Positions 23,153 through 58,132 of a stretch of 64,000 nucleotides of DNA are shown piece after piece. The notes below the pieces were generated by a model, which saw only the letters and a list, made by a program, of their open reading frames with translations, did not search any database and was not told the origin of the DNA. Position numbers and translations under genes: made by a program. The stretch is from Kordiimonas lipolytica (GTDB lineage: Bacteria > Pseudomonadota > Alphaproteobacteria > Sphingomonadales > Kordiimonadaceae), in NCBI RefSeq assembly GCF_001550065.1, contig NZ_LRUB01000012.1, positions 124,001-188,000 of the forward strand, given 5' to 3'. Within the stretch, counting starts at the first letter, position 1; the number at the start of each line of letters is the position of its first letter.

Positions 23153-23168
23153 TTGACAGCGGTGTCAA
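23153..23168. promoter_or_regulatory. LacI-type operator candidate in front of zwf
   Basis: TTGACAGCGGTGTCAA: 6-bp arms TTGACA and TGTCAA around GCGG. It is the exact reverse complement of the site in front of ppc and differs by one or two bases from those near glk and between the symporter and esterase genes. The centre is 51 bases upstream of the zwf ATG, as expected for an operator at or near the promoter. Confidence 0.7.
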
Positions 23169-23236
23169 ATCGAATAGAAAAATGATTGGAGCTATATTTT
23201 TAATGTTTATTTTCAGTGTATTATGATAATTAAATG

Positions 23237-23276
23237 AATTACAGGTATGTAATTGGCATTATATAAAAATACCAAT
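23237..23276. promoter_or_regulatory. Two inverted repeats in front of the GntR/UTRA gene
   Basis: AATTACA-ggta-TGTAATT (23237-23254) is a perfect 7-bp-arm palindrome. It is followed at once by ATTGGCATT-7-AATACCAAT (23252-23276, 8 of 9 positions symmetrical). Both lie 28-68 bases before the GntR start, the usual place for autoregulation by this family. They are distinct from the zwf palindrome in the same divergent region. Confidence 0.5.
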
Positions 23277-23304
23277 ATGAACCATCGCCCAGGAAGGCCC
23301 CCAC

Positions 23305-24039
23305 ATGCAGCTTTCAGACATCATTGGCCCGCTGGATACCAAAGCGACTGCCCCAAAATACCAGCTGCTGTCGAACGCCATCAGGCAGGCGGTGGAGCGC
23401 GGCGCGCTCAAGAGCGGGCAGCCCCTGCCCGCCGAACGCGACATCGCCGAAGACATGGGCGTCTCCCGCGTGACCGTACGAAAGGCGCTCGACAGCCTTG
23501 CTCAAGACGGATTTCTGGAGCGTAGGCGCGGCGCGGGCACTTTCGTTTCCGGCCCGGTTTCCCTACCCACTGCCAGGCTGGCATCTTTTTCTGAAACCAT
23601 GGCCGGTCGTGGCCGGAAGGTGCGGAGCGAGTGGATCGACCGGGCCGAGGGCGTCGCCACGCCGGAAGAATGCATGGGGCTTGGGCTGGCACCCGGTGCG
23701 CGAGTGTATCGGCTGACCCGCATCCGCTATGCAGACGACAGCCCCATGGCACTTGAGACTGCCACGGTGCCCGCTTTTGCCCTTGCGGGCGCAGGGCCCG
23801 TGGCCGGGTCGCTCTATCAGGCGCTTGAGGAAACTGGCCACCGCCCTGTGCGGGCGCTTGAACGTCTTCGCGCCGTCAACCTGAACGCAGAGCAGGCCGC
23901 GCGACTGGGTGTGCCTGTTGGCGACGCCGGCCTGTTGGCTGAGCGCCGCGGCTTTCTGGCAAACGGAAAGACCGTGGAGATGACCCGGTCATACTATCGC
24001 GGCGACGCCTATGATTTCATCGCTGAACTGAAGACGTGA
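23305..24039 (+). CDS. GntR-family transcriptional regulator with UTRA (HutC-type) domain
   Basis: A 244-residue regulator. Residues about 18-80 form the GntR winged helix (LPAERDIAEDMGVSRVTVRK, then DGFLERRRGAGTFV). The rest is a UTRA ligand domain with the YRLTRIRYADDSPMALETAT and final MTRSYYRGDAYDFIAEL signatures shared with NagR/YvoA-type and HutC-type proteins. Ligands of that group include amino-sugar phosphates and urocanate. It is divergent from zwf with inverted repeats directly upstream of itself, so autoregulation is likely; a role in the ED operon is possible but the zwf palindrome looks LacI-like rather than GntR-like. Confidence 0.88.
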   Translation: MQLSDIIGPLDTKATAPKYQLLSNAIRQAVERGALKSGQPLPAERDIAEDMGVSRVTVRKALDSLAQDGFLERRRGAGTFVSGPVSLPTARLASFSETMAGRGRKVRSEWIDRAEGVATPEECMGLGLAPGARVYRLTRIRYADDSPMALETATVPAFALAGAGPVAGSLYQALEETGHRPVRALERLRAVNLNAEQAARLGVPVGDAGLLAERRGFLANGKTVEMTRSYYRGDAYDFIAELKT

Positions 24040-24063
24040 GGGTTCAAAAGACGCCAGTGTAAG

Positions 24064-24378
24064 CTATTTTGCAGCCTTCCCCATCCGCCGGACCAGGAAA
24101 CCAGTTGCCAAAAGAACAACAGCAGACAAGAAAATCGCTACCTGCCCGACAAAAATAGGTCCCACAATAAATGGCAACGCGCCACAGATCATCAGACCAG
24201 ACAACCAGTCATATCCACTGGGGGACTGACCTTTTTCGCGATCAGTCAAAACCATACAAGCGGTGTGGGCCAGCACCAAAGCTATGGATGCCCCAATCCA
24301 AGCTGCGTCACGTATGAAATAGGCATAGAAATAGACATAAAGCCCTATCGTACCCACCAATGTTTCCAACCACCCCAT
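24064..24378 (-). CDS. Small membrane protein of unknown function
   Basis: A 104-residue protein with about four hydrophobic segments (LVGTIGLYVYFYAYFIRDAA; ASIALVLAHTACMVL; GLMICGALPFIVGPIFV; VAIFLSAVVLLATGFLV) and a basic C-terminus. I recognise no family. It lies between the convergent GntR gene and the phnA/yjdM-like gene, with 51 bases to the latter's stop, and may be expressed from that transcript. Coding is supported by the regular helix pattern and by codon use like its neighbours. Confidence 0.6.
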   Translation of the reverse strand: MGWLETLVGTIGLYVYFYAYFIRDAAWIGASIALVLAHTACMVLTDREKGQSPSGYDWLSGLMICGALPFIVGPIFVGQVAIFLSAVVLLATGFLVRRMGKAAK

Positions 24379-24429
24379 AGCAATCTCCTAAACTACCATC
24401 TGGGGCTTGGGGGCCAGCCTGCAAGGTCT

Positions 24430-24768: not shown

Positions 24769-24825
24769 GGTGGTAATCCTTAAACTAGAAAGGCCTTTCT
24801 ATAAGCCCCTGAACTGGAAACCCCA

Positions 24826-25771: not shown

Positions 25772-28603
25772 TTAGCCGAACGCGCCCGCCTTTAAGGCAA
25801 TCAGGCCGCTGATTTCCAGCACCTGGGCATAGGCCTGCTCGATCTTGTCGAAGATATTGCGGTGCGCGTCCTCATAGCCTGACGAGGCGCTGCCTTCATA
25901 GGTGGTCTCTTCGCCGAACTGCTCATCGTCGTTCCGGACCGGCGATTCCGGGAAGATTTTCCTCAGCTGCGTGACTGTATCGTCCACCTCAAGGTGCAAC
26001 AGTTCCACCAGCACATCTTCAAGCGACACATCGAAGCGGCTGCTGAAGCGCGGGATTTCCATGGCCTTGAGGAAGATATACTGGATGAGCCCGATCCTGA
26101 TCTGGTGCAACTCGAACAGTTCCGCGTCCGGCGAGGCGCTATCAAACGCGGCCATCACGCCTTCGTCCTGCACGCAGTCCGTGAGCGTGCCGGCATCACG
26201 CCTGAGCTTGCGGATACAGGCGTCAACGCTGTCGCTTTCGAACAGCCCTTCCAGAAGGCGGGACAGGCGGCGAAGCTGCTCGCGCCTGCCCACATCCGCC
26301 ACTTCATCAGCGCGGTCAAGCCAATAGCCAGGGCTGAGGAGCTTGGCATAAGCCTCGATCACCCCAACATCTGACCGCGCGAGCGCGTTCACAGCCAGGC
26401 TTGTAACCATCTTGAGGCGGTCGGATTTGTTGTAGATTGCCTCAAACAGGTCAGGCGAGCGCGCGATAGCCGTGCCGAAACCGCCACAGCTGTTGGCCAG
26501 ATATCCCAGTTGCTGCAGAACCGCATTGTTCGGAATGGCCCTGATCTGGCTGATGCGCTCAAGCCGCTGGTGCACCGCCCCGCCGCCTTGCCGCCTCAAG
26601 GACCGCGACCCGGTCGGGAACAACAGGCTTCGGCCGATGCTGTCGATCAGGCGCACATAGCCTTTATGGTCCGTCAGATGGTTTTGGTATTCCACCAGCG
26701 TCAGGAAGAAATCTAGCGCCCAGCCCTTTTCTTCATAAAGCTTGTCATCGCTGGCGTCATAATCCGCGAAGCGTACTTCAAGGAAATCGGTGAAGGAGGC
26801 CAGCGCCGTGTCTTCGGCCAGGAACCACAGATAGCCCTCCCCGCCCTGGAAGCTGACTTCATGCTTTTCAGGACGGTTCAGCGTAGCCAGCTGTTCGCGC
26901 ACCCGTGGCGGGTGGGTATAAAGGAAGCGCTTCTTCAGGCTTTCAGGGTATGCCCCCCGGCCCACGCTTTCGCCGTGGGTATCGAAAAACAGAAGCTGCA
27001 CGTCCTCAAGGCCGCGCGCCTTCCAAAGCCGGATCAGGCGAAGCTTGAAACGCTCAATCGCCAGCGTCGCGGCAGGCTGGCCGATATAACGGCCACTATC
27101 CGAGAAACCAAGCTGCAGGCAGAAGCGTCCCTGCCGGCGGATATAGGCCAGGAAATGCGGGTTATCAACCAGTTCCGCGATCACCCGGTCGCCGCGCTCC
27201 AGCCCCACGGCAGTTTCAAACAGCGGGCTGATTTCCACATGGTCTTCCACGCCAAACAGTTTGGCATAGTAAAGCGCCGTCAACAGCGTGAACGGCGTGT
27301 CCGATTCCGCCACCAGCATGCGAATGGGGGTGGTGGCATCAAAGTGCTTCTGGAACTGGGCCGCCAGCATGAACACGCGCCGCGCTGTGGTCTGCTCGCG
27401 CGACAGCGTCCCATAGTGGATAGTCTTGGTTTCCACCTTGTCGAGCTTGTCGGAAATCGCGGCCAGGAAATGGCGGCGCATGGCCGACTGGTCAGGCGAT
27501 TTTGTCAGCTGGATTTCGGCCGAGATGGCGTTATGGAGCTGCGCCGCGTTCAGGCGGAAATGAATGTGCGACAGGCCCATGCCGATCGCGCGCCATTCGC
27601 TATAAAGCGTTGCGGCACCGCACCAGGCATCGTCCGCCAGATCAAGCGCCAGAAGGGCTTCGAACGCCTCGCCGATACGCGCCACAGCCGCTTCCTTGCG
27701 GGAGTGATTTTCAACCGCCAACTGGTTCAGCTTGCCCAGGCCCTTGCTGCTGCCCTCGGGATTGCTTTGGTGTTCCTCCAGCGTGCGGGCGCCCAGTTCA
27801 AAACAGGCGCGCAAGTCTTCAAAACCGGCACGGATGGTTGTCCAATGTTCGACCGCCCCACCCTCAAAGCTTACCCCACTAGTTTGCCCAAGGCAGGCAT
27901 CAAGCCCGGCCAGCGCCGAGCGGTAGCGGAACAACAGCCCCAGTGACCAGTCAATGTCGGTGCGACCATCAAGGTCAAACCCCACCCAACTGGCGATAGT
28001 GGCAAGGCGCGGGCGCAAGCTCCGGTACTCGCCCGGGTAAAGCTTGGCCGCTTCAGTGAAAATAACGCGGTACAGCGTGCGCACAGACCGGCGCATGTTG
28101 CCAACCGCAAGGCCCGCATAATCCAGCTCCTGATGCAGCGTCGGTGATTTGGTCGGATGCACAATGCCAACATCCATATTGGCCGTGGCAGTTTTCACGG
28201 CCTGTTCGCCGTCCGCCACCGCGCCCATATAGGCCTTGGCATAGGTCCAGGCGGTATCTGAAAGGGAGAAGGTCGGGTGCGCAGTCACGACAAAGCCTGC
28301 CACCTCGTCTTCCACCAGCGCGCGAAACTCGCTGAACGGTTTTCGGCTACCGTCAGCGTTCGTTGCGATTTTCTCCACGAGTGCCGCCAGCCGCGCCAGA
28401 TTGTCTTTCCTGGGCACCGCTGACCACTGGCGGGCGAGCCCCGCAAGCCGACCGTCCAGGCAGCGCTTGCCGCGCGCCGACAGGTCTGCGGATAGGTCTT
28501 CCAGTGTCTGCTGTCCTTCAAGCAAGGAACCGGCAATTTCGAACGCCGCAGAAAGGTGTTCCCGTCTTGCTTCGCCCTTACCCTTGGATGGATGATCAAA
28601 CAT
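25772..28603 (-). CDS. ppc: Phosphoenolpyruvate carboxylase, divergent type
   Basis: A 943-residue PEPC-family protein; the classical enzyme makes oxaloacetate from PEP and bicarbonate. Family marks: FVVTAHPTFSLSDTAWTYA with His109 (the catalytic His of VLTAHPT), LQLGFSDSGRYIGQPAATLA, FEAIYNKSDRLKMVTSLAVN and the helical C-terminal third. It departs from the textbook enzyme in three places: the Glu after AHPT is Phe, the FHGRGGSIGRGG loop reads FDTHGESVGRGA (541-551, keeping the second Arg but not the first His-Gly-Arg), and the usual RNTG C-terminus is absent (ends KAGAFG). It may be a separate PEPC clade or a paralogue with changed activity. A palindrome identical to that of zwf lies 25 bases upstream; a strong terminator follows. 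Confidence 0.8.
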   Translation of the reverse strand: MFDHPSKGKGEARREHLSAAFEIAGSLLEGQQTLEDLSADLSARGKRCLDGRLAGLARQWSAVPRKDNLARLAALVEKIATNADGSRKPFSEFRALVEDEVAGFVVTAHPTFSLSDTAWTYAKAYMGAVADGEQAVKTATANMDVGIVHPTKSPTLHQELDYAGLAVGNMRRSVRTLYRVIFTEAAKLYPGEYRSLRPRLATIASWVGFDLDGRTDIDWSLGLLFRYRSALAGLDACLGQTSGVSFEGGAVEHWTTIRAGFEDLRACFELGARTLEEHQSNPEGSSKGLGKLNQLAVENHSRKEAAVARIGEAFEALLALDLADDAWCGAATLYSEWRAIGMGLSHIHFRLNAAQLHNAISAEIQLTKSPDQSAMRRHFLAAISDKLDKVETKTIHYGTLSREQTTARRVFMLAAQFQKHFDATTPIRMLVAESDTPFTLLTALYYAKLFGVEDHVEISPLFETAVGLERGDRVIAELVDNPHFLAYIRRQGRFCLQLGFSDSGRYIGQPAATLAIERFKLRLIRLWKARGLEDVQLLFFDTHGESVGRGAYPESLKKRFLYTHPPRVREQLATLNRPEKHEVSFQGGEGYLWFLAEDTALASFTDFLEVRFADYDASDDKLYEEKGWALDFFLTLVEYQNHLTDHKGYVRLIDSIGRSLLFPTGSRSLRRQGGGAVHQRLERISQIRAIPNNAVLQQLGYLANSCGGFGTAIARSPDLFEAIYNKSDRLKMVTSLAVNALARSDVGVIEAYAKLLSPGYWLDRADEVADVGRREQLRRLSRLLEGLFESDSVDACIRKLRRDAGTLTDCVQDEGVMAAFDSASPDAELFELHQIRIGLIQYIFLKAMEIPRFSSRFDVSLEDVLVELLHLEVDDTVTQLRKIFPESPVRNDDEQFGEETTYEGSASSGYEDAHRNIFDKIEQAYAQVLEISGLIALKAGAFG

Positions 28604-28627: not shown

Positions 28628-28643
28628 TTGACACCGCTGTCAA
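28628..28643. promoter_or_regulatory. LacI-type operator candidate in front of ppc
   Basis: TTGACACCGCTGTCAA, the exact reverse complement of the zwf site, 25 bases before the ppc start codon. Placement would block transcription or its start, as for a repressor. Confidence 0.7.
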
Positions 28644-36301: not shown

Positions 36302-37318
36302 CTAGCGCGCGGTGGAGCCGCGGAGCTGCAGCTCAAAATCGATAACCGTTTCGCCCGCTTCCGCGAGCTTTTCGCGACCTTCGGGATTCATGGCATCCAT
36401 CAGGGCTTCAGCGGCCTGACGGCCCATGGCGCGGATTGGCTGCCTGACCGTGGTCATGCCCGGCCACACCTGGCGCGACAGCGGGGTATCGTCAAAGCCC
36501 GCGACGGCCAGGTCACCCGGCACATTCAGCTTGCGGCTGTGAGCTTCATAGATGGCAGCGGCGGCCATATCGTCGTTCGAAGCAAAGATTGCCGTTGGCG
36601 GCACTGGCAGCGACAGCAAGTCAGACGCCGCCTTGCGGCCTGACGCGAAATCGAAATAGCCCTGGGCGAGATAGCCGTCCAGGATATCCAGGTCCGCTTC
36701 CTTCATGGCCTTGAGGAAGCCTTCCTCGCGGCACTTGCTGGAATAGTGGTCCGGGTGCCCCTTGATCAGCGCCACGCGGGTATGGCCCATCCCGATGAGG
36801 TGACGGGTCATCTGGAAGGCGGCCTCGACTTCATCGATCAGCACGGCGGGCGTGCCGAGCGTGCTTCTGGACGACAGGATCACCACCGGGATGTCCTGCG
36901 CCTTAAGGGCTTCAAGAAGCGGTTTGCTGTCTGTGAGCGGGGGCGTCAGCACCACGCCGTCCAGGAATGCCTGCCGAGCCCAGTGGATAACCTGATCCAC
37001 CATGTCAGGGGCGTGATAGGAAACGGGATTGAGCGCCATGCCGTAATGGCTTTCGCGGCAGGCTTCGATCATACCCGCCTGCAGGTTCGCCAGATAGTTG
37101 GGGCTGGGGCTATCGTATACCAACCCGATCATATAAGAGCGGCGCGAGGCAAGCCCGCGCGCGCTTTGGTTCGGGCGGTAGTTCAGTTCCTTGATGGCCG
37201 CATCGACCTTGTCCTTGGTTGCCGCCCGTACGTTTGGCTCCCTGTTCACCACCCGTGAAACAGTTTTGATCGAAACGCCCGCCGCTTTCGCAACGTCATC
37301 AATGGTAACTGACCGCAT
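36302..37318 (-). CDS. LacI-family transcriptional regulator of sugar metabolism
   Basis: A 338-residue LacI/GalR protein. Helix-turn-helix VTIDDVAKAAGVSIKTVSRV with the hinge YRPNQSARGLASRRSYMIG, then a periplasmic-binding-like effector domain (SNDDMAAAAIYEA; VAGFDDTPLSRQVWPGMTTV). The ATG at 37318 has AGGA at good spacing; the ATG at 37327 is too close to it. It follows the symporter gene on the same strand after a 64-base gap, so it is probably part of that operon. Two near-perfect TGACAGCGCTGTCA palindromes lie in front of the operon, and variants occur at zwf, ppc and glk; this protein is the only LacI member in view and the best candidate to bind them. Confidence 0.92.
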   Translation of the reverse strand: MRSVTIDDVAKAAGVSIKTVSRVVNREPNVRAATKDKVDAAIKELNYRPNQSARGLASRRSYMIGLVYDSPSPNYLANLQAGMIEACRESHYGMALNPVSYHAPDMVDQVIHWARQAFLDGVVLTPPLTDSKPLLEALKAQDIPVVILSSRSTLGTPAVLIDEVEAAFQMTRHLIGMGHTRVALIKGHPDHYSSKCREEGFLKAMKEADLDILDGYLAQGYFDFASGRKAASDLLSLPVPPTAIFASNDDMAAAAIYEAHSRKLNVPGDLAVAGFDDTPLSRQVWPGMTTVRQPIRAMGRQAAEALMDAMNPEGREKLAEAGETVIDFELQLRGSTAR

Positions 37319-37382
37319 CTTCAACATCCTAAGCTGTAGCTCCGGTCACGAGTGTTTGTCCAAACGTCATGCCGGCAGCTCC

Positions 37383-38942
37383 CTACCACCATGTTCCATA
37401 GAGCGCTGCAAGGATCAGCACAACAAGAAATGCCGCAAAGTTGAAGCCCTTGGTGGTGTGGAATTCCACGTCATGCAGCTCAACCGCGCCCTCCTGGTCA
37501 TGGCCGTTACCCATAACAGAGAAGACCACAGCAAGGCCAACACACAAGAGGAACACAATGCCAACCCGGTCGATAAACGGCAGTTCAGGCCAGACCTGCA
37601 TAAAGAGGAACGACAGCACGGCAGAGCCGATCGCGGCCGCCAGCGCGCCTGTTGCCGTTGTCTTTTTCCAAAAGATACCCATCAGGAAGATCACAACAAT
37701 GCCTGGCGTGAAAAAGCCGGTGAATTCCTGGATATACTGGAAGGCCTGGTCGAAGTTGCCCAGAAGCGGCTTGGCCGTGATCATGGCCGTGATCATGGCC
37801 AGAAGCGCCACCACCCGGCCCACGATAACCGGGTCCTTGCGGTTCTCTTCCTTCACAAAACTTGGGTAGATATCCATGGTGAAGATGGTGGAGATGGAGT
37901 TGGTCATGGACCCCAGCGACGATACAATCGCCGCGATGAGTGCCGCGAACACAAGGCCCAGAAGGCCAGACGGCAGCAGCTTCATGGCAGATGGGTATGC
38001 CTGGTCAGGCGCGGCCAGATTTGGCTCCAGCACGAAAATGGCGATACCCGGCAGCACAACGATGATTGGCATCACCAGCTTCAGGAATGCCGCGAAAACG
38101 ATACCCTTCTGGGCTTCCTGCAGGCTTTTGGCCGCCAGCGCGCGCTGGATGATATATTGGTTGAAGCCCCAGTAGGACACATTCATGATCCACATGCCGC
38201 CCACAAGCACCGAAATGCCGGGCAGCGCGTCATAGAATGGGTTGTCAGGCGTGAAGATCATGTCGAACTTCTCAGGCGCACGCTCGACCAGCATATCGAA
38301 GCCTGCAATCACGCCCGCGCCATCAGACACTTTGTTAAGCATGATGTAGGCAATCACAAGGCCACCGAACACCAGAAGCACCACCTGGATAATGTCAGTA
38401 AAGGCTACTGCCTTCAGCCCGCCATAAAGCGAATAACCCGCCGCGAAGATGCCAAGGGCCACAAGGCCGTAGACAAGATCAAAGCCCGTTACGGCTTCGA
38501 TCGCAAGCGCACCCAGCCACAGGATGGACGTGAGGTTCACGAACACATAAACGCCCATCCAGAAGAAGGCCATCACCATACGCACCCGGTGGTCATAGCG
38601 CTGCTCCAGGAACTGCGGCATGGTGTAGATGCCGCGCTTCAGGAACACCGGCAGCAGGTATTTGCCCACAATAATAAGCGTGATCGCCGCCATCCATTCA
38701 TAGGATGCGATCGCAAGTCCCATGGCATAGCCCGAACCGGACATGCCGATAATCTGCTCGGCCGAAATATTGGACGCGATCAGCGAGGCACCGATGGCCC
38801 ACCAAGGCAGAGTCTTGCCCGCGAGGAAATAGTCAGATGCGTCTTTGTCGTGGCCAGCGCGTTCGCGCGAAACCCACTGGGCCAAAGAAAACAGCGTGAC
38901 GGCATAGATGGCCACAACGGCAAAATCGAGTGTGCTAAACAA
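37383..38942 (-). CDS. Sodium:sugar symporter (SSS family, SGLT/vSGLT-like)
   Basis: A 519-residue membrane protein with about 14 helices. Family marks: FLAGKTLPWWAIGASLIASN, SAEQIIGMSGSGYAMGLAIA and FAALIAAIVSSLGSMTNSIS (sodium-site serines). The SASNISAEQ-type N-terminal part is as in Vibrio sodium/galactose transporters, so a sugar, plausibly glucose, is the likely cargo. Two starts are possible: TTG at 38942, with GGGGAGGG directly before it and giving the usual short N-terminus, or ATG at 38981 without a good ribosome-binding site; I prefer the TTG. It heads an operon with lacI and lies opposite the esterase with two operator-like palindromes between them. Confidence 0.88.
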   Translation of the reverse strand: MFSTLDFAVVAIYAVTLFSLAQWVSRERAGHDKDASDYFLAGKTLPWWAIGASLIASNISAEQIIGMSGSGYAMGLAIASYEWMAAITLIIVGKYLLPVFLKRGIYTMPQFLEQRYDHRVRMVMAFFWMGVYVFVNLTSILWLGALAIEAVTGFDLVYGLVALGIFAAGYSLYGGLKAVAFTDIIQVVLLVFGGLVIAYIMLNKVSDGAGVIAGFDMLVERAPEKFDMIFTPDNPFYDALPGISVLVGGMWIMNVSYWGFNQYIIQRALAAKSLQEAQKGIVFAAFLKLVMPIIVVLPGIAIFVLEPNLAAPDQAYPSAMKLLPSGLLGLVFAALIAAIVSSLGSMTNSISTIFTMDIYPSFVKEENRKDPVIVGRVVALLAMITAMITAKPLLGNFDQAFQYIQEFTGFFTPGIVVIFLMGIFWKKTTATGALAAAIGSAVLSFLFMQVWPELPFIDRVGIVFLLCVGLAVVFSVMGNGHDQEGAVELHDVEFHTTKGFNFAAFLVVLILAALYGTWW

Positions 38943-39055
38943 GTGTCCCTCCCCAGATACAGAACGATCGGGTCCATTCATTCAAATTTGAAAAGCCAGA
39001 CGCCCTTCCCGACGTCATGGCATTCCCTTTCCCAGTTTGGACCATAGGCGCAATG

Positions 39056-39069
39056 TGACAGCGCTGTCA
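39056..39069. promoter_or_regulatory. LacI-type operator candidate 1 between symporter and esterase
   Basis: TGACAGCGCTGTCA is a perfect 14-bp palindrome and looks like the consensus for the sites at zwf, ppc and glk. It is 113 bases in front of the symporter's TTG start. Confidence 0.72.
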
Positions 39070-39110
39070 ACAGACAAGACAGTGCCGAGGCAACCAATCA
39101 GGGCAAAAAT

Positions 39111-39124
39111 TGACAGCGCTGTCG
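39111..39124. promoter_or_regulatory. LacI-type operator candidate 2 between symporter and esterase
   Basis: TGACAGCGCTGTCG, one mismatch from the perfect palindrome, starting 55 bases after the start of site 1 and 52 bases before the esterase start. The 55-base spacing of two sites would allow cooperative binding or looping across the divergent promoters. Confidence 0.7.
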
Positions 39125-39176
39125 AATGGCGCTACCGCTTCTGAAGGGAAAAACAAAAAACAAGAAGGGAGAGAGC

Positions 39177-40109
39177 ATGCGGGGGATCAAACCAGCCCTG
39201 ATGGCTGCCACAGTATTCCTATCGGCCTGCGGCGGCCCGGCACCAACCGGCGAGGAACGCGGCGCCAAGGTTTCCACTGGAACGCTGGAAACATATGAAG
39301 ATTTCAAAGCCACAGGGCTAACAAGCCGTGACCTGCAGGTGTGGCTGCCGGACGGGTACGCGGAAAATGCCGCAAACGGCCACAAATATGCTGTTCTTTA
39401 TATGCATGACGGGCAGATGCTCTATGACGCGTCTGTCACATGGAACAGCCAAGAATGGGGCGTGGATGAAGTGGCTGGCAAGCTGATGGCAGAGGGTAAA
39501 GTGCGCAACTTTATCGTTGTGGGCGTTTTCAATGGCGGTGACACGCGCCACGCCGACTATCTGCCTGAAAAGCCCTATCATTTGCTGCCTGAAAATGTGC
39601 GCCAAGGCTATTACGGCACCCATGCCCCGGATCTGAAGGCCGACGAATATATCGCCTTCCTTGCCGATGAGCTAAAGCCCTTTATCGATAGCAAGTACGC
39701 CACCCTGACCGGGCCTGAGGACACCGCGGTAATGGGCTCGAGTATGGGTGGGCTCATTTCCATGTATGCGATTGGCGAACGGCCAGACGTGTTTGGCATG
39801 GCTGCCTGCATGTCCACCCACTGGCCGGGGTTCGACCCTGGCAAAACCCCGGAAATGCCGGACACTTTCATTGCTTACATGCGTGAAAACCTGCCCCCGC
39901 CGGAAGGCCACAGGATCTATTTCGATTACGGCGACCAGACGCTGGATGCCCACTATCCACCACTGCAGAAAAGGGTGGACGCCGTGATGACAGAGCTTGG
40001 GTATACCGCGAGCAATTGGCTGACGGTCTATGACCCAGGCGCCAACCACAGCGAAGACGCATGGAACAAGCGCCTGCCCGGCGTGTTTATGTTTCTGTTT
40101 GGGAAATAG
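39177..40109 (+). CDS. Lipoprotein esterase of the alpha/beta-hydrolase (Fes/esterase D-like) family
   Basis: A 310-residue exported protein with signal and lipobox FLSACGGP, so it is lipid-anchored. The hydrolase core shows YAVLYMHDGQMLYD, the nucleophile elbow GSSMGG with Ser189, and His291 in PGANHSEDAW; the Asp is probably in FDYGDQTLDAHY. Putative_esterase members include enterobactin esterases and carbohydrate deacetylases or feruloyl esterases. Given the operators shared with sugar genes, deacylation of a carbohydrate is a sensible guess. The start at 39177 follows AAGGGAGAGA. Divergent from the sugar symporter. Confidence 0.85.
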   Translation: MRGIKPALMAATVFLSACGGPAPTGEERGAKVSTGTLETYEDFKATGLTSRDLQVWLPDGYAENAANGHKYAVLYMHDGQMLYDASVTWNSQEWGVDEVAGKLMAEGKVRNFIVVGVFNGGDTRHADYLPEKPYHLLPENVRQGYYGTHAPDLKADEYIAFLADELKPFIDSKYATLTGPEDTAVMGSSMGGLISMYAIGERPDVFGMAACMSTHWPGFDPGKTPEMPDTFIAYMRENLPPPEGHRIYFDYGDQTLDAHYPPLQKRVDAVMTELGYTASNWLTVYDPGANHSEDAWNKRLPGVFMFLFGK

Positions 40110-47498: not shown

Positions 47499-47514
47499 AT
47501 GTCCCTCCCGATAC

Positions 47515-48510: not shown

Positions 48511-48515
48511 GGGTA

Positions 48516-49433: not shown

Positions 49434-49532
49434 CTTCTTGTCTCCAGACTAGGGAACGCCTGCATTTCGGCGTTCTATAGGGTTTTGTTGACGGCCGGTT
49501 TTTATGCGGCCTGTTTCAGATTTGAATTGTGT

Positions 49533-49548
49533 ATATTGTATACAATAT
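49533..49548. promoter_or_regulatory. Perfect 16-bp palindrome in the hydroxyproline divergent promoter
   Basis: ATATTGTATACAATAT, centred between the deaminase (start 100 bases to the left) and the D-hydroxyproline oxidase (start 54 bases to the right). TTGTATACAA cores are typical of FCD-type GntR regulators. A 13/16 match is found in front of the GntR/FCD gene at 41179. Confidence 0.75.
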
Positions 49549-49601
49549 GCTATTTCAAGCCTGTTTCTTATGCCCTGGTATGTTTTTTCGAAAGGCCTCC
49601 G

Positions 49602-50888
49602 ATGGACAATCCCGCCCCCCTTAGCCAAAAGGTACTCACCCACACGTATGGGCTTGATTGCGAAATTGCCGTCATCGGTGCCGGGATCATTGGCGTATGC
49701 ATAGCCATTGAGCTGCAGGCGGCAGGCCATGATGTCTGGCTTATTGACCGCAAAGGCGTGGCCGAGGAATGCTCCTATGGGAACGCGGGCCATATTGCGG
49801 TCGAACATATCTTTCCGCTGTCTTCCCCCGCCACGCTCATGCAAGTGCCGAAAATGCTACTTCAGCCCAACGGGCCGCTTTCTATTCGAGCTGCCTACCT
49901 GCCACAGCTGATGCCGTGGCTGATGCGCTTCCTTTGGGCGGGGCGACCTGTGCAGGTGCGGCGGGGCACAGAGGCCATCGCGGCCTTGAACGCCCGCGCA
50001 CTGCCGGCATACAGAAGCCTGGACGCACGCTTTGATCTGGGTGGCCTGCTGGTTGAGGACGGCACGCTTGTGGTATTTGAAAGTGAAAAAAACCTCTCAG
50101 CCGCCTCACGCGAACAACGCCTACTGACGGATTTCGGCGTGGAAACGGCGCTGATGGACGCCACAGAGCTCAAGGCCTTTGACCCGTCACTAAGCCCTGC
50201 GCTGAAGGGCGCCGTATGCTTCCCCGCCTCTGCGCACGTTACCGATCCGGCGGCGCTGGTGCGCATGCTGGCGAGCCGCTTCACCCAAAGGGGCGGGCAT
50301 ATTGAAAGGCAGGCCGTTACCGGCATGGACCACAGCCCCACCCATTTGGGGCTGACCACAAGCAGGGACCGGGTGCGCGCGCAGAAAGTGGTGATTGCGG
50401 CAGGCGCCTGGTCCCACCAGCTGGCGCGCATGCTGGGGTACAAGGTCCCCCTGGAGACCGAACGCGGCTATCACCTGATGCTGGACGAGCCCACTGTGAT
50501 GCCGCGGGTGCCCACCACCTATCACGAGCGCCGCTTTGTCGCGACCCCGATGGACGCGCGGCTTCGCCTTGCCGGACGGGTGGAGCTTGGCGGGCTCCAG
50601 CTGCCGCCCAATATTAGGCAGGCTCATGCGCTGATGCCGCAGGGACAAGACTTGCTGCCGGACCTTCAGGCCCAAGGCGCCACGCCCTGGATGGGCTTTC
50701 GCCCCACGTTGCCGGACAGTCTTCCGGTAATCGGGCCTGCGCCTAGGCATAAAGGCGTCTATTTCGCCTTCGGCCATAACCATATGGGGCTGACCCACGG
50801 GGCGATTACAGGGGAGTTGATGCGGGACTTGATTGGCGGAAAGGTACCAGGAATTGACCTGACGCCCTACCGGATAGACCGGTTCTAG
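49602..50888 (+). CDS. FAD-dependent D-hydroxyproline dehydrogenase (DAO family)
   Basis: A 428-residue flavoprotein of the DadA/DAO family. FAD motif VIGAGIIGVCIAIELQAAG with LIDRKGVAEECSYGNAGHIA, and a C-terminal second FAD strand (MGFRPTLPDSLPVIGPAPRH, then YFAFGHNHMGLTHGAITGE). In the pathway it oxidises cis-4-hydroxy-D-proline, made by the epimerase, to pyrroline-4-hydroxy-2-carboxylate. The start at 49602 has AAAGG before it; an open frame extends back to 49317 inside the opposite deaminase gene and is not needed. Single-subunit form, with no separate ferredoxin-like partners. Confidence 0.9.
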   Translation: MDNPAPLSQKVLTHTYGLDCEIAVIGAGIIGVCIAIELQAAGHDVWLIDRKGVAEECSYGNAGHIAVEHIFPLSSPATLMQVPKMLLQPNGPLSIRAAYLPQLMPWLMRFLWAGRPVQVRRGTEAIAALNARALPAYRSLDARFDLGGLLVEDGTLVVFESEKNLSAASREQRLLTDFGVETALMDATELKAFDPSLSPALKGAVCFPASAHVTDPAALVRMLASRFTQRGGHIERQAVTGMDHSPTHLGLTTSRDRVRAQKVVIAAGAWSHQLARMLGYKVPLETERGYHLMLDEPTVMPRVPTTYHERRFVATPMDARLRLAGRVELGGLQLPPNIRQAHALMPQGQDLLPDLQAQGATPWMGFRPTLPDSLPVIGPAPRHKGVYFAFGHNHMGLTHGAITGELMRDLIGGKVPGIDLTPYRIDRF

Positions 50889-50891
50889 AGG

Positions 50892-51959
50892 CTATTCTTC
50901 CGCCACAACAGGGTCGACATAATCGCCTTCGCCCAGGCCTTCGAGCGAACTTGCGAAGCGTTCCACGGTCTTGCCCGCCTTTTCAGCATTGTCGAATTCG
51001 GCTACATGGAAAAGCGCGTCGCCTTCATTGACAATCGGTAGGTTGGTGCGCCCGATGACAACACCTTCTTTGGTGGCCTTGATTTCGCTTTCCTCATCCC
51101 CCAGCCAGTCACTCAGGTGCGCCAGCCGGTCGCCTTTTTCAACATGACTGCCGAGCGCGATCGGGTTCCTGATCAGGCCCGAACGTTTCGCCCGCACCCA
51201 GTGGGAGGTCTCTGCCTCCACCGTCACATGCGGGCGGCGCTTGATCGCACGCTTGATCATGCCCACAGCCCCCAGAACGTTCAGAATGCCGCGCACACCG
51301 GCAGAGACTGCCAGCTTTTCAAACCGCAGCGCTTCGCCTGCCTCATAGAGAAGCACAGGCACGCCTTGCTCCACCGCGTGGCCGCGCAACGACCCGTCCC
51401 GAAGCGTGGCATTCACGATCACGGCCGTGTTGAACGCGCGCGCCAAACGGGCGGTTTCCGCGTCCTCCATGTTGGCGCGGATATGCGGATAGTTGGTGCG
51501 GTGATTGGCGCCGGTATGCAGGTCGATGCCATAGTCGGCGCGCTCAAGAATTTCTGTGTTGAACACATGGGCCACGCGGGCCGCAAGCGAGCCGTGCTCA
51601 GAGCCGGGGAACGACCGGTTCAAATCGCGCCGGTCAGGCATATAGCGGGTATGGTTGAGGAACCCGTATACATTGACCACCGGCACACAAATGAGCGTGC
51701 CGCGCAGGCGATTGAGCGCCTTCTGTTTCAGAAGCTGGCGAACGATCTCGATCCCGCCGATCTCGTCGCCGTGGATGGCCGCCGAGATGAACATGGTGGG
51801 GCCATCTTTCCTGCCATGCACGATGTGAACCGGCATGGAAAGCGGTGTGTAACGGCTTTGGCCCGGCAGCTCCAGCGCCAATGACGCCCGACTGCCCGGC
51901 TGAACCTTATGCTTCCCGAACGTAAAAGGCGCACGGCGCGCGGCGCGCTCGCCGCTCAT
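50892..51959 (-). CDS. Succinylglutamate desuccinylase/aspartoacylase-family zinc deacylase
   Basis: A 355-residue M14-like metal hydrolase. Zinc ligands are in SAAIHGDEIGGIEIV (His and Glu) and YGIDLHTGANHRT (His); the DLNRSFPG Arg motif is present. A C-terminal 90-residue beta domain (RSGLIRNPIALGSHVEKGDR, biotinyl/lipoyl-like) follows. Third gene of rimB-rimK-deacylase, 4 bases after rimK. Deacylases of this family remove acyl groups from amino acids or peptides; next to RimK the likely target is a glutamylated or N-acylated product, but that is inference. Start at 51959; an open frame to 52070 lies inside rimK. Confidence 0.88.
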   Translation of the reverse strand: MSGERAARRAPFTFGKHKVQPGSRASLALELPGQSRYTPLSMPVHIVHGRKDGPTMFISAAIHGDEIGGIEIVRQLLKQKALNRLRGTLICVPVVNVYGFLNHTRYMPDRRDLNRSFPGSEHGSLAARVAHVFNTEILERADYGIDLHTGANHRTNYPHIRANMEDAETARLARAFNTAVIVNATLRDGSLRGHAVEQGVPVLLYEAGEALRFEKLAVSAGVRGILNVLGAVGMIKRAIKRRPHVTVEAETSHWVRAKRSGLIRNPIALGSHVEKGDRLAHLSDWLGDEESEIKATKEGVVIGRTNLPIVNEGDALFHVAEFDNAEKAGKTVERFASSLEGLGEGDYVDPVVAEE

Positions 51960-51963
51960 GGGC

Positions 51964-52869
51964 TTAGCCCTTCCCTTTGGTTTGGGTACGGTTCGGGCCT
52001 GCCTTCTTCTCGATGCACTCGATGATCTTGCCCGCAACATCAATGCCCGTGGCTTTCTCAATGCCCTCAAGCCCCGGCGAGCTGTTCACTTCCATGATCA
52101 CCGGCCCGTGGTTGGACCGCAGCATGTCCACGCCCGCGACATTCAGGCCCATGATTTTGGCCGCGCGCACAGCGGTGGACCGCTCTTCCGGCGTGATCTT
52201 AATGGTGCGCGAGCTGCCGCCCCGGTGGAGGTTAGACCGGAACTCACCCTCTGCGCCCTTGCGCATCATTGACGCCACAACCTTGCCGTCGATCACCAGG
52301 CAGCGAATATCAGACGCGCCTGCTTCCTTGATATATTCCTGCACCAGAATGTGCGCCTTCAGCTTGCCGAACGCCTGGATCATGGACCGCGCCGCATCAC
52401 GCGTATCTGCCAGCACAACACCCACGCCCTGCGTGCCTTCAAGAAGCTTAATCACCACAGGTGTGCCGCCAACCATATCGATCAGGTCATCCGCTTCGCT
52501 GGTGCCGTTTGCAAATGCTGTTACCGGCAGGCCAACGCCGCGACGCGACAGCAGCTGAAAACTCCTGAGCTTGTCGCGCGAACGGGTAATCGCCACTGAT
52601 TCGTTGAGCGGATAAACACCCGCCATTTCAAACTGGCGAAGAACTGCAGTCCCGAAGAAGGTAACCGATGCGCCAATCCGCGGGATCACGGCATCATAGC
52701 CCTTAAGAATATCGCCTTTATAGCGCATCTCAGGCCGGTGCGAGGCGATATTGATATAGACCTTCATTGTGTCGATGGGGTCCATCTCATGTCCGCGTTC
52801 CTTTGCTGCCTCCATCAGGCGCTGGTGCGAATAAAGATCAGGGTTACGGGTCAGAAGTGCGATACGCAT
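51964..52869 (-). CDS. rimK: RimK-family ATP-grasp alpha-L-glutamate ligase
   Basis: A 301-residue ATP-grasp ligase starting [20 protein letters not shown]. Nucleotide and metal sites are in [40 protein letters not shown] and [20 protein letters not shown] (Mg-binding Glu and Asn). Family members add glutamates to the C-terminus of ribosomal protein S6 or make poly-alpha-glutamate. Length matches E. coli RimK. Start chosen at 52869; the frame is open to 52929 within rimB. The middle position in a three-gene operon with the retropepsin-like RimB and a deacylase suggests addition and removal of glutamate tags. Confidence 0.93.
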
Positions 52870-52888
52870 GATTTCTTCTTCCTTGGCA

Positions 52889-53341
52889 TTAGCAATTAAA
52901 GTTCGGGTCGTCCGGCTCTCCGAGCCCATAGGACAGACCGCTGTCTACTAGACAAAATCCCTTGAGCGCCTGGCGCCCGATCAGCATCCTGAAACCCATG
53001 TCGTCCCGGTTGGTGAGCGTCAGCTCAACCTTGCGGGAGATCGGTCCCAGTTTCAAAAGCGTCTTCACAACATAGCGAATCTCTTCATGCCCGCTTGAGC
53101 TTCTAACCGCCCGCTCATCAACAATCGGCGCTTCACAGCGGATTTCAGGCCGTTTGTGTTTCTGCACGGGGTGCAGGCGAAATTCCGCCCAAGGGGCGCC
53201 ATCCTTCATGAATTTCTTCACGCGGTAGGCATGGATGGCGCTTGTCTTGGCACCTGTATCGATCTTGGCCTTGATACGGTCCACGCCCAGATCCGGAAGG
53301 GTCGCCCATTCGCGCCAACCGATGATCAGTTTGCTTCGCAT
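52889..53341 (-). CDS. rimB: RimB-like retropepsin-fold protease
   Basis: A 150-residue protein of the RimB/Slr0534-type family (often labelled ATP-dependent zinc protease). The aspartic-protease-like motif [16 protein letters not shown] is clear, with conserved [14 protein letters not shown] and the closing [16 protein letters not shown]. In Pseudomonas RimB works with RimK and limits S6 glutamylation, so the same relation is expected here. First gene of the operon, 19 bases before rimK; start at 53341, though the frame is open to 53377. Cytoplasmic. Confidence 0.9.
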
Positions 53342-54810: not shown

Positions 54811-56448
54811 CTAAAAAATGCAGGCGCCGAAGGCGGGGAGACGCTCGCCCGGCGCGGCGCCATTGAGGCTGAAGCGTGCGCCACCTGACACACCTGCTAC
54901 CGGCCAGTCCTGTGGCTTTCCTGAAAGATTGAAGACGCACATGAGGGTTTCTCCCTCATGGGTGCGTTCAAAAGCCAGCACGGGCTCGGGGGCCTCCAGG
55001 AACCTGATCCCCCCTTTGATCAACGCAGGTTCGCCCTTGCGGTATTTGAGGAACGCCCGAAGGGCATTCAGCACTGAGGCTTCATCGCCTTCCTGAACAC
55101 TCACCGCACGCGCCGCGTGGCGTGGGTCCACCGGCAGCCAGGGCTCGTGACTAGAGAAACCTGCATGATCGGCATTTGCTTCCCACGGCATGGGGGTCCG
55201 CGTGCCGTCACGGCCAAGCGTTGATGGCCAGTTGGCAATGGCTTCCGGATCTGTCAGGCGCTCGAACGGCACATGGGCCTGTGGCAGCCCGAGCTCCTCC
55301 CCCTGATAGAGGCATACACTGCCACGCAAGCTGAGGATCAGCATATTCAGCATTTTGGCAAACGCCGGATTGTCTTCGATTGCTGTCTCAGTCGCCCAAC
55401 GGGAGACCGCGCGCGGCCTGTCATGATTACTGAAGGTGAAAGACGGCCAGCCCATGCCCGGCGCGTCCGGCCAGGCCTCAACCGCCTCGCGGATCACCTT
55501 CGCTGATAGGGTGTCTGCCTCAAGAAATTCGAAGCTGTAAGCTGTGTTAAGGCCCGTTTCCCCGCGGGTGAACAGTTGCATCTCTTCCAGCGCGCGCTCG
55601 CCGCCCACCTCGGCCACGGTGAAGGTGCCTGGATATTCATTCATCAGCGCGCGCACGCGCTCAAGGAATTTGGGGATGTCTGCGTGGCTCTGATTATAAA
55701 GATGCTCCTGCAGGTCAAACGGCTTGTCCCCCCGATATTCATAGGCCTTCGGGTTGTCCCGAAGTTCCGGGTCATGCATCATGAAATTGACCGCATCCAT
55801 GCGAAAACCGTCCACACCGCGATCAAGCCAGAAACGCCCGGCTTCCAGAAGCGCATCCTGCACGTCTGGATTATGCACATTCAGGTCTGGCTGGCTTTCA
55901 AGGAAATTATGCAAGTAATACTGGCCCCGGCCCTCGTCCCATGTCCAGCTAGAGCCCATGAAAACAGACATCCAGTTGGACGGCGGGCCACCGTCAGCCT
56001 TGGCATCAGCCCAGACATACCAGTCAGCCTTGTCGCCCGTGCGCGCCTTGCGGCTTTCCTGGAACCAGGGGTGCTGGTCCGACGTGTGGCTATAGACCTG
56101 GTCGATGATTACCTTCAGGCCAAGGGCGTGCGCGCGGGCAAGCAGCGCGTCAAAATCCGCCAATGTGCCAAAGATTGGGTCGACATCGCAGAAATCGGCA
56201 ACGTCATAGCCAAAATCTTTCATGGGCGAGGTGAAGAAAGGCGACAGCCAGATGCCGTCGACCCCCAGCGACGCGATATGATCCAGCTTGTCAGTGATAC
56301 CCTTCAGGTCACCGACGCCGTCACCGCTCGCGTCCATGAAACTGCGCGGATACACTTGATAAATTACCGCCCCGCGCCACCAATCGGTGTCCGCCTGAGC
56401 TGCCTGGTTCACGCCATTATCACTTTTATTATGCTGCGCCAAAGCCAT
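54811..56448 (-). CDS. Alpha-glucosidase, GH13 (oligo-1,6-glucosidase/maltase type)
   Basis: A 545-residue glycoside hydrolase releasing glucose from short alpha-glucans. TIM-barrel motifs: VIYQVYPRSFMDASGDGVGD at the N-terminus, then catalytic nucleophile Asp218 (GFRMDAVNF), acid/base Glu280 (TVAEVGGE) and Asp343 (FSNHDRPRA). The small C-terminal beta domain ends the protein. The true start is ATG at 56448 (TTG just before it is unnecessary). No signal peptide, so it works on imported oligosaccharides. The gene is alone, upstream of a long AT-rich region with TTGCAA boxes; the TGACA-GCGS-TGTCA palindrome of the glucose genes is not seen here. Confidence 0.93.
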   Translation of the reverse strand: MALAQHNKSDNGVNQAAQADTDWWRGAVIYQVYPRSFMDASGDGVGDLKGITDKLDHIASLGVDGIWLSPFFTSPMKDFGYDVADFCDVDPIFGTLADFDALLARAHALGLKVIIDQVYSHTSDQHPWFQESRKARTGDKADWYVWADAKADGGPPSNWMSVFMGSSWTWDEGRGQYYLHNFLESQPDLNVHNPDVQDALLEAGRFWLDRGVDGFRMDAVNFMMHDPELRDNPKAYEYRGDKPFDLQEHLYNQSHADIPKFLERVRALMNEYPGTFTVAEVGGERALEEMQLFTRGETGLNTAYSFEFLEADTLSAKVIREAVEAWPDAPGMGWPSFTFSNHDRPRAVSRWATETAIEDNPAFAKMLNMLILSLRGSVCLYQGEELGLPQAHVPFERLTDPEAIANWPSTLGRDGTRTPMPWEANADHAGFSSHEPWLPVDPRHAARAVSVQEGDEASVLNALRAFLKYRKGEPALIKGGIRFLEAPEPVLAFERTHEGETLMCVFNLSGKPQDWPVAGVSGGARFSLNGAAPGERLPAFGACIF

Positions 56449-56451
56449 CAA

Positions 56452-56765
56452 CCAAACTATCCCGTTACTTCCCTACCCTGCCGGGCTGCCTTCCTGGGCC
56501 TACTCGTCCTTCTCGCGTAGGATCGACATAAACATATATTTGCACATTTTTGCAATCTATTTTCAAATTTTTTCACAAAAAATTCGACATTCACAATGAG
56601 GGATAGTAGCCAGAAGTCCGCATATCTCCATTATAAACAATAGTTTACATAAATTCCGCACCTAAACCCTGCTAAAGCACACCGCTGCGGAGCTGCCCAG
56701 AACATCGAGCATCTTTGCAATTTTTGTTGCAATTTTCATTTTTTGCTTTATTTTGCAAAAAAGAT
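56452..56765. promoter_or_regulatory. AT-rich 5' region of the GH13 gene with TTGCAA boxes
   Basis: This gene-free stretch contains TTTGCACATTTTTGCAA (56539-56555) about 95 bases before the GH13 start. Further on are TTGCAA at 56715, 56727 and 56753, the last inside an inverted repeat TTTTTTGC-8-GCAAAAAA (56739-56762). CATCTTT (56710-56716) and AAAGATG (56760-56766) also face each other. These look like binding sites for a regulator of the GH13 gene or of the structured stretch that follows. Confidence 0.4.
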
Positions 56766-57008
56766 GGAATCAGGGGCAGCCGCTTGGCACCTTCCACGTG
56801 CTTCCTCCCCTCCCTTGGCACCCCTGGTTCCGCCAATCGTTTCGTTTCCTCGGAAGCTGATGGCCCTGCTGTCCCGGGCATAGGCTTCCAACAGTTTAGG
56901 GGCCTCTTTGTGGGCCACAGGCTTGGGGCAGGTGACCTCCCACTCCATGCCTACCACAAGGAGCACATCTTCACCCCGGCAGCGCAGGCTGACCGGGGTG
57001 CTTTTTTT
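56766..57008 (+). ncRNA. Candidate non-coding RNA with strong 3' terminator
   Basis: About 243 bases with no supportable gene but much pairing. GGAATCAGGGG (56766-56776) and CCCCTGGTTCC (56821-56831) make an 11-bp stem whose only non-Watson-Crick pair is a U-G wobble on the plus strand; GGAAGC and GCTTCC near 56851-56891 enclose ATG-CCC/GGG-CAT pairing. The terminator CACCCCGG-13-CCGGGGTG (56972-57000) runs into CTTTTTTT (57001-57008). No plus-strand protein gene ends here, so something non-coding appears to be transcribed. A short unrecognised peptide gene cannot be excluded. Confidence 0.45.
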
Positions 57009-57030
57009 CAGCAACAGAATGTTTGAAGAG

Positions 57031-57993
57031 CTACGCCACAGCGGCGCCGACAAGCGCCGCATATTCGGCTGTGATCAGGTGCACCGGAATGGTTTCCACA
57101 TAGGCTGACTGTGCGCCCTTGGCGACAAAGCGGCGCAGAAGATCGCTTGGTCCGACCATGTCGGCAATCTTCGGCAGGATGCCGCCGCCCAGGAACACGC
57201 CGCCCCTGGCGCCATGCACCAGCGCAATATCACCGGCCGTCGACCCGACGATAGACAGGAAAAGCTGCACAGCGCGCGTGCAGGCAGGCGCCCCGCCTTC
57301 AGCGGCGAGCTTTGTGATTTCCGCAGGACTCAGGTTGCGGTCTCCGCCGCCGCCATAATCCACCAGGAATCGGTATATACGAGCGATGCCTTCGCCGCAC
57401 AGGAAGCTTTCGACAGACACATAGCCAAGCTCGGCCCGCAGGTGCTCGGTCAGGTCATGCTCAAGGCGTGACCCAGGGGCGAAAGCCATGAAGCCGCCTT
57501 CGGTGGACACAGTGTGATAACCCTTGCCGTTCGGCACCAGAAGCGCCACACCAAAACCGGTACCCGGCCCCATGACAGATATGGGGGCATCCGGGTCTGC
57601 CTCACCATTCTTGAGCGTGACATAATCCACACCCTCCTCAAGGAACGGACAGGCGCGGGCAAGCGCACCGAAGTCGTTGACAAACTTGACCACCTCCAGG
57701 CCGTGGGTGCTCTCAATTTGATCGGCATCCACTTCCCAACCCAGGTTGGTCAGTCGGCCCTTCTTTTCCGTGGTTGGCCCTGCAATGGCCAGTTTGGCCT
57801 CGCGCGGGACAGGCGATTCGATTTTTGCGATATAGGCACCCAGCATCTGGCTGAGGCTGCCAAATTCGCGGCAAGAGAAGACAATCACCTGGTCGATATC
57901 CGGCTTGACCTGCCCTTCACGGAAGGTCGCAATGCCGAACCGGCCATTGGTGCCACCGATATCGGCAACAATACATCTTTTGGTCTCTGTCAT
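57031..57993 (-). CDS. glk: Glucokinase
   Basis: A 320-residue E. coli-type glucokinase that phosphorylates glucose to glucose-6-phosphate with ATP. ATP motif IVADIGGTNGRFGIA at the N-terminus, sugar site around VVKFVNDFGALARACPF, and MGPGTGFGVALLVPNG then YHTVSTEGGFMAFAP. Glucose arriving unphosphorylated, as expected with a sodium symporter instead of a PTS, needs this enzyme to reach Zwf. A LacI-type operator lies 126 bases upstream. Single gene; its 3' side faces the plus-strand terminator of the candidate RNA. Confidence 0.95.
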   Translation of the reverse strand: MTETKRCIVADIGGTNGRFGIATFREGQVKPDIDQVIVFSCREFGSLSQMLGAYIAKIESPVPREAKLAIAGPTTEKKGRLTNLGWEVDADQIESTHGLEVVKFVNDFGALARACPFLEEGVDYVTLKNGEADPDAPISVMGPGTGFGVALLVPNGKGYHTVSTEGGFMAFAPGSRLEHDLTEHLRAELGYVSVESFLCGEGIARIYRFLVDYGGGGDRNLSPAEITKLAAEGGAPACTRAVQLFLSIVGSTAGDIALVHGARGGVFLGGGILPKIADMVGPSDLLRRFVAKGAQSAYVETIPVHLITAEYAALVGAAVA

Positions 57994-58118
57994 ACCCCTT
58001 CCCTTTCGGGTGCGGCATCGACACCAATCGCCACCGCAAAAACACCGCGCATCAACAGCCCTTTCCCATCAGCCGGGATGCAAAAAATCAAAACTGAACC
58101 TTCACTAGTAGCCAGAAA

Positions 58119-58132
58119 AGACAGCGCTGTCA
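58119..58132. promoter_or_regulatory. LacI-type operator candidate in front of glk
   Basis: AGACAGCGCTGTCA differs from the perfect palindrome at 39056 by its first base only and is followed by A like the other sites. It is 126 bases upstream of the glk start, farther than at zwf or ppc; the glk promoter must then lie some distance from the gene. Confidence 0.6.

Follow-up and report, generated by a model that had tools for sequence, protein, structure and literature searches.

A conserved palindrome before glucose, Entner-Doudoroff and PEP carboxylase-like genes points to a LacI-type regulon in Kordiimonas

Five palindromes in a Kordiimonas lipolytica locus

We examined a 64,000-nucleotide stretch of the Kordiimonas lipolytica genome (contig NZ_LRUB01000012.1, forward-strand positions 124,001 to 188,000; hereafter the window). 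Near-identical palindromes stand there before genes for glucose import, glucose phosphorylation, the Entner-Doudoroff (ED) pathway and a phosphoenolpyruvate (PEP) carboxylase (PEPC)-like protein. The genes concerned, numbered from the first letter of the window, are:

18400..19203, minus strand: eda, 2-keto-3-deoxy-6-phosphogluconate (KDPG) aldolase
19055..20854, minus strand: edd, phosphogluconate dehydratase
20894..21631, minus strand: pgl, 6-phosphogluconolactonase
21628..23109, minus strand: zwf, glucose-6-phosphate dehydrogenase
25772..28603, minus strand: ppcL, divergent PEP carboxylase-like protein (PF00311)
36302..37327, minus strand: lacI, LacI-family regulator (PF00356 at 8-53, PF13377/PF00532)
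37383..38981, minus strand: SSS sodium/glucose-galactose-type symporter, vSGLT-like (2xq2, E 7.8e-160 over 12-532)
39126..40109, plus strand: putative esterase
57031..57993, minus strand: glk, glucokinase

The product of 36302-37327 has the N-terminal helix-turn-helix and the periplasmic-binding-protein-like sensor domain of the LacI/GalR family, and the symporter (37383-38981) resembles vSGLT over its full length, as SGLT-type transporters do. A tblastn search with 10 LacI queries returned this single LacI gene in the window. The gene lies in the symporter operon, with two palindromes between that operon and the esterase (39056..39069 and 39111..39124). Both points agree with the original prediction, which was made from the letters of the window and joined the palindromes and this LacI into one regulon. 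The putative operators are:

23154..23167, minus strand: putative operator of zwf-pgl-edd-eda; TTGACA at 23168-23163 and TAGGGT at 23145-23140, 17 bp downstream
28629..28642, minus strand: putative operator of ppcL, immediately downstream of promoter-like GTGACT (28679-28674) and TACAAA (28657-28652)
39056..39069, minus strand: putative operator of symporter-lacI; TTGACA, with TATGGT 18 bp on
39111..39124, plus strand: second putative operator, in line with the divergent esterase; TTGACA at 39110-39115, TACCGC at 39133-39138
58119..58132, minus strand: putative operator of glk; TTGACA, with TACTAG 17 bp on (58110-58105)

The esterase more likely starts at the ATG at 39177, behind this promoter-like pair, than at 39126.

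All five palindromes are where they had been reported, in promoter positions. Positions 23153-23168 read TTGACAGCGGTGTCAA, and 28628-28643 are, letter for letter, the exact reverse complement of this zwf site, as claimed. Searching the window with TGACAGCGSTGTCA (at most two mismatches) gave 10 strand matches, representing the five sites, where 0.95 were expected; none of 100 shuffled sequences reached 10. Each of the five lies in non-coding DNA, which makes up 16% of positions 17714-61932 by our own gene list. The shuffles and the uniformly intergenic placement rule out a chance origin.

Conservation of the sites and choice of regulator

The window LacI is 81% identical to its counterpart in the metagenome-assembled genome (MAG) HF-Din21 (G004), 70% in Kordiimonas gwangyangensis (G001), 64% in MAG M2405 (G002) and 62% in K. 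marina (G003). In these four closest relatives the palindrome precedes the symporter-lacI operon, zwf, the PEPC gene and glk without exception, bearing out the expected conservation of the sites. The counterpart of the 39056..39069 site occupies the same place in all four, with a different symporter (36% identical) in G001. The zwf site lies at -58 to -61, with TAGNNT at equal spacing, in five relatives (G072, G004, G001, G002, and G003), and at ppcL a GTGACW...TACAAR pair followed by the palindrome is found in the window and five close relatives. Genome-wide, TGACANCGNTGTCA (at most one mismatch) outnumbered its reversed control by 41 to 2 in G001, 34 to 7 in G002, 24 to 3 in G003 and 31 to 7 in G004, in line with the predicted genome-wide enrichment. 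Further copies stand at fba and an aldo/keto reductase gene (both in G001 and G004), pgi (G004) and a GH13 gene (G003).

We then scanned 29 family genomes, 23 of which carry a LacI of the window's clade, reaching 450 bp upstream of each gene. Of the LacI-clade genomes, 22 gave a glk match and 21 of these have a glk site, against none of three genomes lacking the clade (Fisher p 5e-4, kinship ignored); the sole miss, G073, is a contig end, and G072, with no glk match, falls outside the count. Directly or within an operon, zwf lies behind a site in 20 of 23 clade genomes and ppcL in 17 of 23. For G018, which has two zwf genes, the copy 71 bp from the site was counted and the other has none; a G069 site 561 bp upstream of ppcL, beyond the scan, was also counted. 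The TGACANCGNTGTCA palindrome co-occurs with the clade lacI gene.

Gene order provides the strongest argument for co-regulation. Seven genomes (G005, G055, G058, G071, G075, G076, and G077) have the arrangement glk <- TGACAGCGCTGTCA -> lacI-ppcL-zwf-pgl-edd-eda around one strict palindrome, with neighbouring genes less than 100 bp apart as aligned. In G018, a single strict palindrome separates divergent zwf and ppcL, while in G064 and G031 glk-zwf-pgl-edd-eda lies behind one site and ppcL behind another. One operon in some genomes therefore corresponds elsewhere to several units, each behind a copy of the operator.

The original prediction had envisaged a single palindrome and a single LacI, and this part held only partly. 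Near a locus with GH3, TonB and MFS genes, G001, G002 and G004 carry a second LacI, with the same palindrome by its own lacI as TGACAGCGCTGTCT, TGATAGCGCTGTCA and strict copies (by Pfam, a GH3 beta-glucosidase and a TonB receptor on G004, MFS on G001). The recognition helices of such paralogs differ from that of the window LacI by one or two residues. On these grounds the main binder might be another paralog, such as the GH3/TonB/MFS-linked one, leaving the symporter-linked LacI as just a local regulator. We regard this as improbable. Nine LacI-clade genomes (G003, G005, G055, G067, G069, G072, G073, G075, and G076) have no second LacI at E<=1e-60, a threshold that the paralog in G001, G002 and G004 passes, yet each keeps the palindrome before at least one of glk, zwf, ppcL, pckA and lacI, which favours the clade LacI as the regulator. 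Furthermore, the clade lacI itself heads the target operon in the seven genomes with the fused array.

The 39056/39111 pair of the window (55 bp) has close parallels at the paralog locus, where the GH3 and TonB-receptor genes repeatedly carry two palindromes 55-61 bp apart (L112, L133, and L100). A third LacI, divergent from a glucokinase paralog (L097:16241-17419, L110:5561-6598), lies next to the palindromes GGACAACGTTGTCA and TGATAACGATGTCA, which have an ACGT centre or are similar; the hinge of this LacI has ARNLRG in place of ARGLA. The notion that the centre bases follow from the hinge motif (ARGLA with GCGC, ARSLA with ACGT) failed, as the L268 paralog (= L114:1422-2492) has ARSLA near GCGC.

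Promoter geometry, pckA and the PEPC-like protein

Taking one site per gene, the nearest to the start, we asked where the palindrome lies relative to promoter elements. It contains TTGACA in the direction of the gene in 20 of 21 cases at glk, 8 of 9 at zwf, 13 of 15 at lacI, 5 of 9 at ppcL (G074 included) and 2 of 13 at pckA, which encodes PEP carboxykinase. The difference between glk, zwf and lacI together (41/45) and pckA (2/13) gave a Fisher p of 4e-7, an optimistic value that ignores kinship. At many sites a hexamer beginning with TA also follows at a distance of 16-18 bp, for example TAGGGT at zwf and, in G071 and G077, TATAAT at lacI.

With TTGACA inside the palindrome at most glk, zwf and lacI promoters, the repeat could in principle be one strong -35 element common to these promoters, or have arisen by chance, with no regulator behind it. 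This is extremely improbable: the second half, TGTCA, is kept as well, a -35 box does not account for the pckA copies or for the ppcL copies of close relatives, and in the four closest genomes the reversed control motif is rarer by a factor of 4 to 20. The positions instead suggest that the promoters of the sugar genes and of ppcL are occluded.

The pckA site lies outside the window. A palindrome precedes pckA in 13 of 22 LacI-clade genomes and in none of four genomes without the clade (p 0.048, kinship ignored; G004, where the contig ends, is outside the count). It stands approximately 145-210 bp ahead of the start codon; its end is followed, approximately 23 bp on, by a conserved TTGATT block in 11 of the 13 cases. 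From this upstream site LacI may activate pckA, or at least act differently there.

We consider it likely that the window LacI is a central-carbon regulator of Kordiimonas-type bacteria that represses glucose entry, the ED pathway and ppcL and activates pckA. From the sites, their positions and conservation, their co-occurrence with lacI and the operon fusions, we infer binding, a mode of action at each promoter, an effector and PEP carboxylation by ppcL. The LacI (36302-37327) would bind TGACA-NCGN-TGTCA as a dimer. Without glucose or an early glucose product, it would occupy the symporter-lacI, glk, zwf-pgl-edd-eda and ppcL promoters and keep RNA polymerase off them, since the -35 box is part of the palindrome at the symporter, glk and zwf, and since at ppcL, in the window and its close relatives, the palindrome comes shortly after the -10 box. 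Arrival of sugar would release LacI, and uptake, phosphorylation, the ED pathway and the refill of oxaloacetate from PEP would start together; the lacI operon would be under negative autoregulation by its own product. Elsewhere in the genome, judging from relatives, LacI would sit upstream of the pckA promoter and probably aid transcription. With ppcL repressed and pckA activated, conversion of PEP to oxaloacetate and of oxaloacetate to PEP would be switched oppositely.

Several observations weigh against this reading. No linked site was found at ppcL in six of the 23 LacI genomes (G011, G025, G040, G049, G066, and G067), at zwf in three of 23 (G049, G066, and G067) or at pckA in nine of 22, and pykA has a site in just one of 28 genomes, which rules it out as a conserved target. 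The motif count of G005, which carries a clade LacI and a strict site, is 14 versus 12 for the control; lacking genome-wide enrichment, this genome would have a small regulon. G074, a fragmentary assembly without the clade LacI, has a site before the PEPC gene. The 45 gene-site pairs in the TTGACA tally are not independent, since 12 palindromes between divergent glk and lacI were counted for each gene, and an extended palindrome yields TTGACA in both directions. The -10 boxes match at least four of six positions of the E. coli consensus in 9 of 21 cases at glk, 0 of 9 at zwf, 7 of 15 at lacI, 2 of 9 at ppcL and 2 of 13 at pckA; random places reach this level at 12-14%, and by that consensus the boxes are mostly weak. 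The sites could be shared with paralog LacIs, whose recognition helices are nearly the same, and the evidence for activation of pckA is the position of its site.

Very probably, one regulator switches the genes for glucose uptake, glucose burning and carbon refill together. Conservation, co-occurrence with the clade and operon fusion uphold the proposed LacI regulon of glucose import, glucokinase, the ED operon and the PEPC gene; the idea of one palindrome for one LacI is weakened by the paralogs of K. gwangyangensis and its relatives, which lie beside this palindrome too and whose recognition helices are almost identical to that of the window LacI.

The ppcL product is a divergent PEPC. It matches PF00311 with 57 bits over residues 333-553 only, and its score against NCBIfam PRK00009, 62.5 bits, is below the cut-off of 815, hence the name PEPC-like (ppcL). 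A PEPC fold is predicted over the whole chain. Aligned with seven canonical PEPCs by hhalign, it keeps seven of ten residues (H109, R350, E463, D502, R549, R667, and R688) at positions that we take to have catalytic roles, and it is changed at the other three (K to R505, H to D541, and R to H543). The partial PF00311 match contradicts a reading of the gene as an ordinary ppc. Among the matches listed (the best 120 of 553, from 7993 scored candidates sharing most words), ppcL is 95% identical to a protein named from K. lacus. The suggestion that ppc in the regulon couples anaplerosis to ED flux is thus supported in that the PEPC gene is a recurrent member (17 of 23) and qualified in that its product is a divergent PEPC-like protein of predicted activity.

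Joined gene orders of ppcL with sugar genes occur repeatedly, as zwf-edd-glk(-eda)-ppcL, lacI-ppcL-zwf... and palindrome-gapA-ppcL. The first, consecutive and on one strand, was seen in four more distant genomes (L364-L367), where there is no palindrome. The last was seen in three genomes with a GluR-type LacI (L379, L380, and L381), where a strict palindrome heads the gapA-ppcL pair (glyceraldehyde-3-phosphate dehydrogenase by TIGR01534). An anaplerotic-type enzyme is thereby tied to the ED pathway in three ways: by an operator of its own, by an operon with lacI and zwf, and by distant gene order. Many proteins called "phosphoenolpyruvate carboxylase" in these bacteria belong to this divergent subfamily of putative activity, and its regulation suggests a direct hypothesis for its function.

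Further genes lie elsewhere in the window. One runs off the window end:

62047..63993, minus strand: GH97 glycosidase, 80% identical to the GH97 of G004

It lies upstream of an FGGY kinase gene (60448-61932). GH97 homologues in three relatives have a palindrome upstream; the window's own copy, if kept, would be beyond position 64000. No palindrome (at most two mismatches) precedes the GH13 alpha-amylase family gene at 54811-56451. Positions 46059-52929 hold aldehyde dehydrogenase, proline racemase family, dihydrodipicolinate synthase (DHDPS) family, AstE/AspA and RimK-type ATP-grasp genes, a block largely kept in G004 on the contig of lacI.

GluR and other known systems

For the comparisons below, GapR is the CceR of later papers, and the HexR motif differs from the palindrome. 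Ravcheev et al. (2014, PMC4052901) predicted that central carbon metabolism in Alphaproteobacteria is controlled by three LacI regulators, PckR, GapR and GluR, that are not orthologous to one another. As its published text describes them, GluR targets in three Caulobacter genomes are zwf-pgl-edd-glk, pykA, gnl-gfo, ppdK and sucABCD (PMC4052901).

The window resembles a GluR system in having a palindrome, here with a GCGC or GCGG centre, upstream of both zwf and the regulator's unit. The Kordiimonas regulon could be the Caulobacter GluR regulon carried over into a different bacterial order, with an orthologous regulator and the same core targets plus lineage-specific extras; this bears on name and descent, as the mechanism would not differ. 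Both regulators have the recognition helix SIKTVSR, and sites at zwf are found in Caulobacter and at Hyphomonad-type loci: TGACAACGTTGTCA 69-88 bp upstream at six of six Caulobacter loci, and a TGACAGCGCTGTCA-like site at nine of nine Hyphomonad-type loci (outside these counts are L020, with a zwf site at -395, and the Emcibacter-type L043 and L049, with none). We built a LacI tree of 79 rows, picked by similarity to the window LacI (117, minus 10 long-branch or off-clade rows and 28 thinned), rooted at the midpoint, with groups named after the first tree. The Kordiimonas-type LacIs, 24 in all, group together (97/97), and GluR falls with several paralogs into a separate clade of 47 rows (99/95). 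In approximately unbiased (AU) tests, the window clade with Caulobacter alone was rejected (p 0.013), whereas a clade of both together with the Hyphomonad proteins stands (p 0.073). On balance, we think orthology with GluR less likely than not, though it deserves serious weight.

A bolder version of the regulon also departs from GluR. It holds that a LacI non-orthologous to GluR, PckR and CceR works a two-way switch between PEP and oxaloacetate, co-inducing an ED-dedicated PEPC subfamily and activating pckA, and, jointly, that ppcL belongs to an unrecognised subfamily with a remodelled active-site loop. We put this forward tentatively, as a possibility that we doubt somewhat more than we believe, for the switch and for the subfamily alike. 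If it is true, the recurrent linkage of ppcL with sugar genes would point to the evolution, in ED-using Alphaproteobacteria, of a PEPC tuned to ED flux.

By architecture, GluR is the nearest known system. Like the Kordiimonas regulator, it belongs to the LacI family, targets zwf-pgl-edd-glk and has predicted autoregulation and release by sugar, according to the text describing it (PMC4052901); by our own computation, the TGACA half-site at zwf is also common to both. Unlike the GluR set as published, the Kordiimonas set includes ppcL, pckA and an SGLT-type symporter, with pykA in just 1 of 28 genomes; its centre is mostly GCGC rather than the ACGT of Caulobacter zwf, and its regulator lies in another part of the tree.

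PckR of Rhizobiales is likewise a predicted dual LacI regulator that represses glk and zwf-pgl-edd and activates pckA, but pckR is mostly unclustered with its targets, and its motif is described as distinct from those of GapR and GluR (PMC4052901). GapR/CceR of Rhodobacteraceae represses ED and glycolytic enzymes and supports gluconeogenesis, including PckA (PMC4052901, PMC5507952, PMC11323563), with proteomic support in Paracoccus (PMC11323563). By description, it differs in having pycA among its targets, not a PEPC gene, and in being mostly unlinked to them. HexR of Gammaproteobacteria controls zwf, edd, eda and glk together, joined by pckA in some lineages, but is an RpiR-family, KDPG-responsive protein (PMC5343134, PMC5507952).

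The original prediction had called ppc an unusual member of ED regulons, and the main texts, figures aside, of PMC4052901, PMC5507952, PMC11323563 and PMC5343134 agree in that the word ppc is absent from them. In PubMed Central (PMC) searches, none of the titles and abstract openings listed dealt with this regulon, and "phosphoenolpyruvate carboxylase" with "Kordiimonas" returned 0 papers. The regulon would extend LacI-type control of central metabolism to a lineage that our literature search did not list for it, with its own regulator clade and target set.

From the sites and gene orders, we conclude that a conserved network of putative LacI-type operators is real and wider than the window shows, as pckA indicates, and that a divergent PEPC is a recurrent partner of the ED pathway. 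LacI control of ED genes is already known, published as GluR, PckR and GapR/CceR (PMC4052901). As far as the published texts tell, the present regulon, with its predicted binding, effector and enzyme activity, appears ordinary in kind, with a membership and wiring that are new. Against the texts searched, the novelty lies in a PEPC gene as a regular member of such a LacI regulon.

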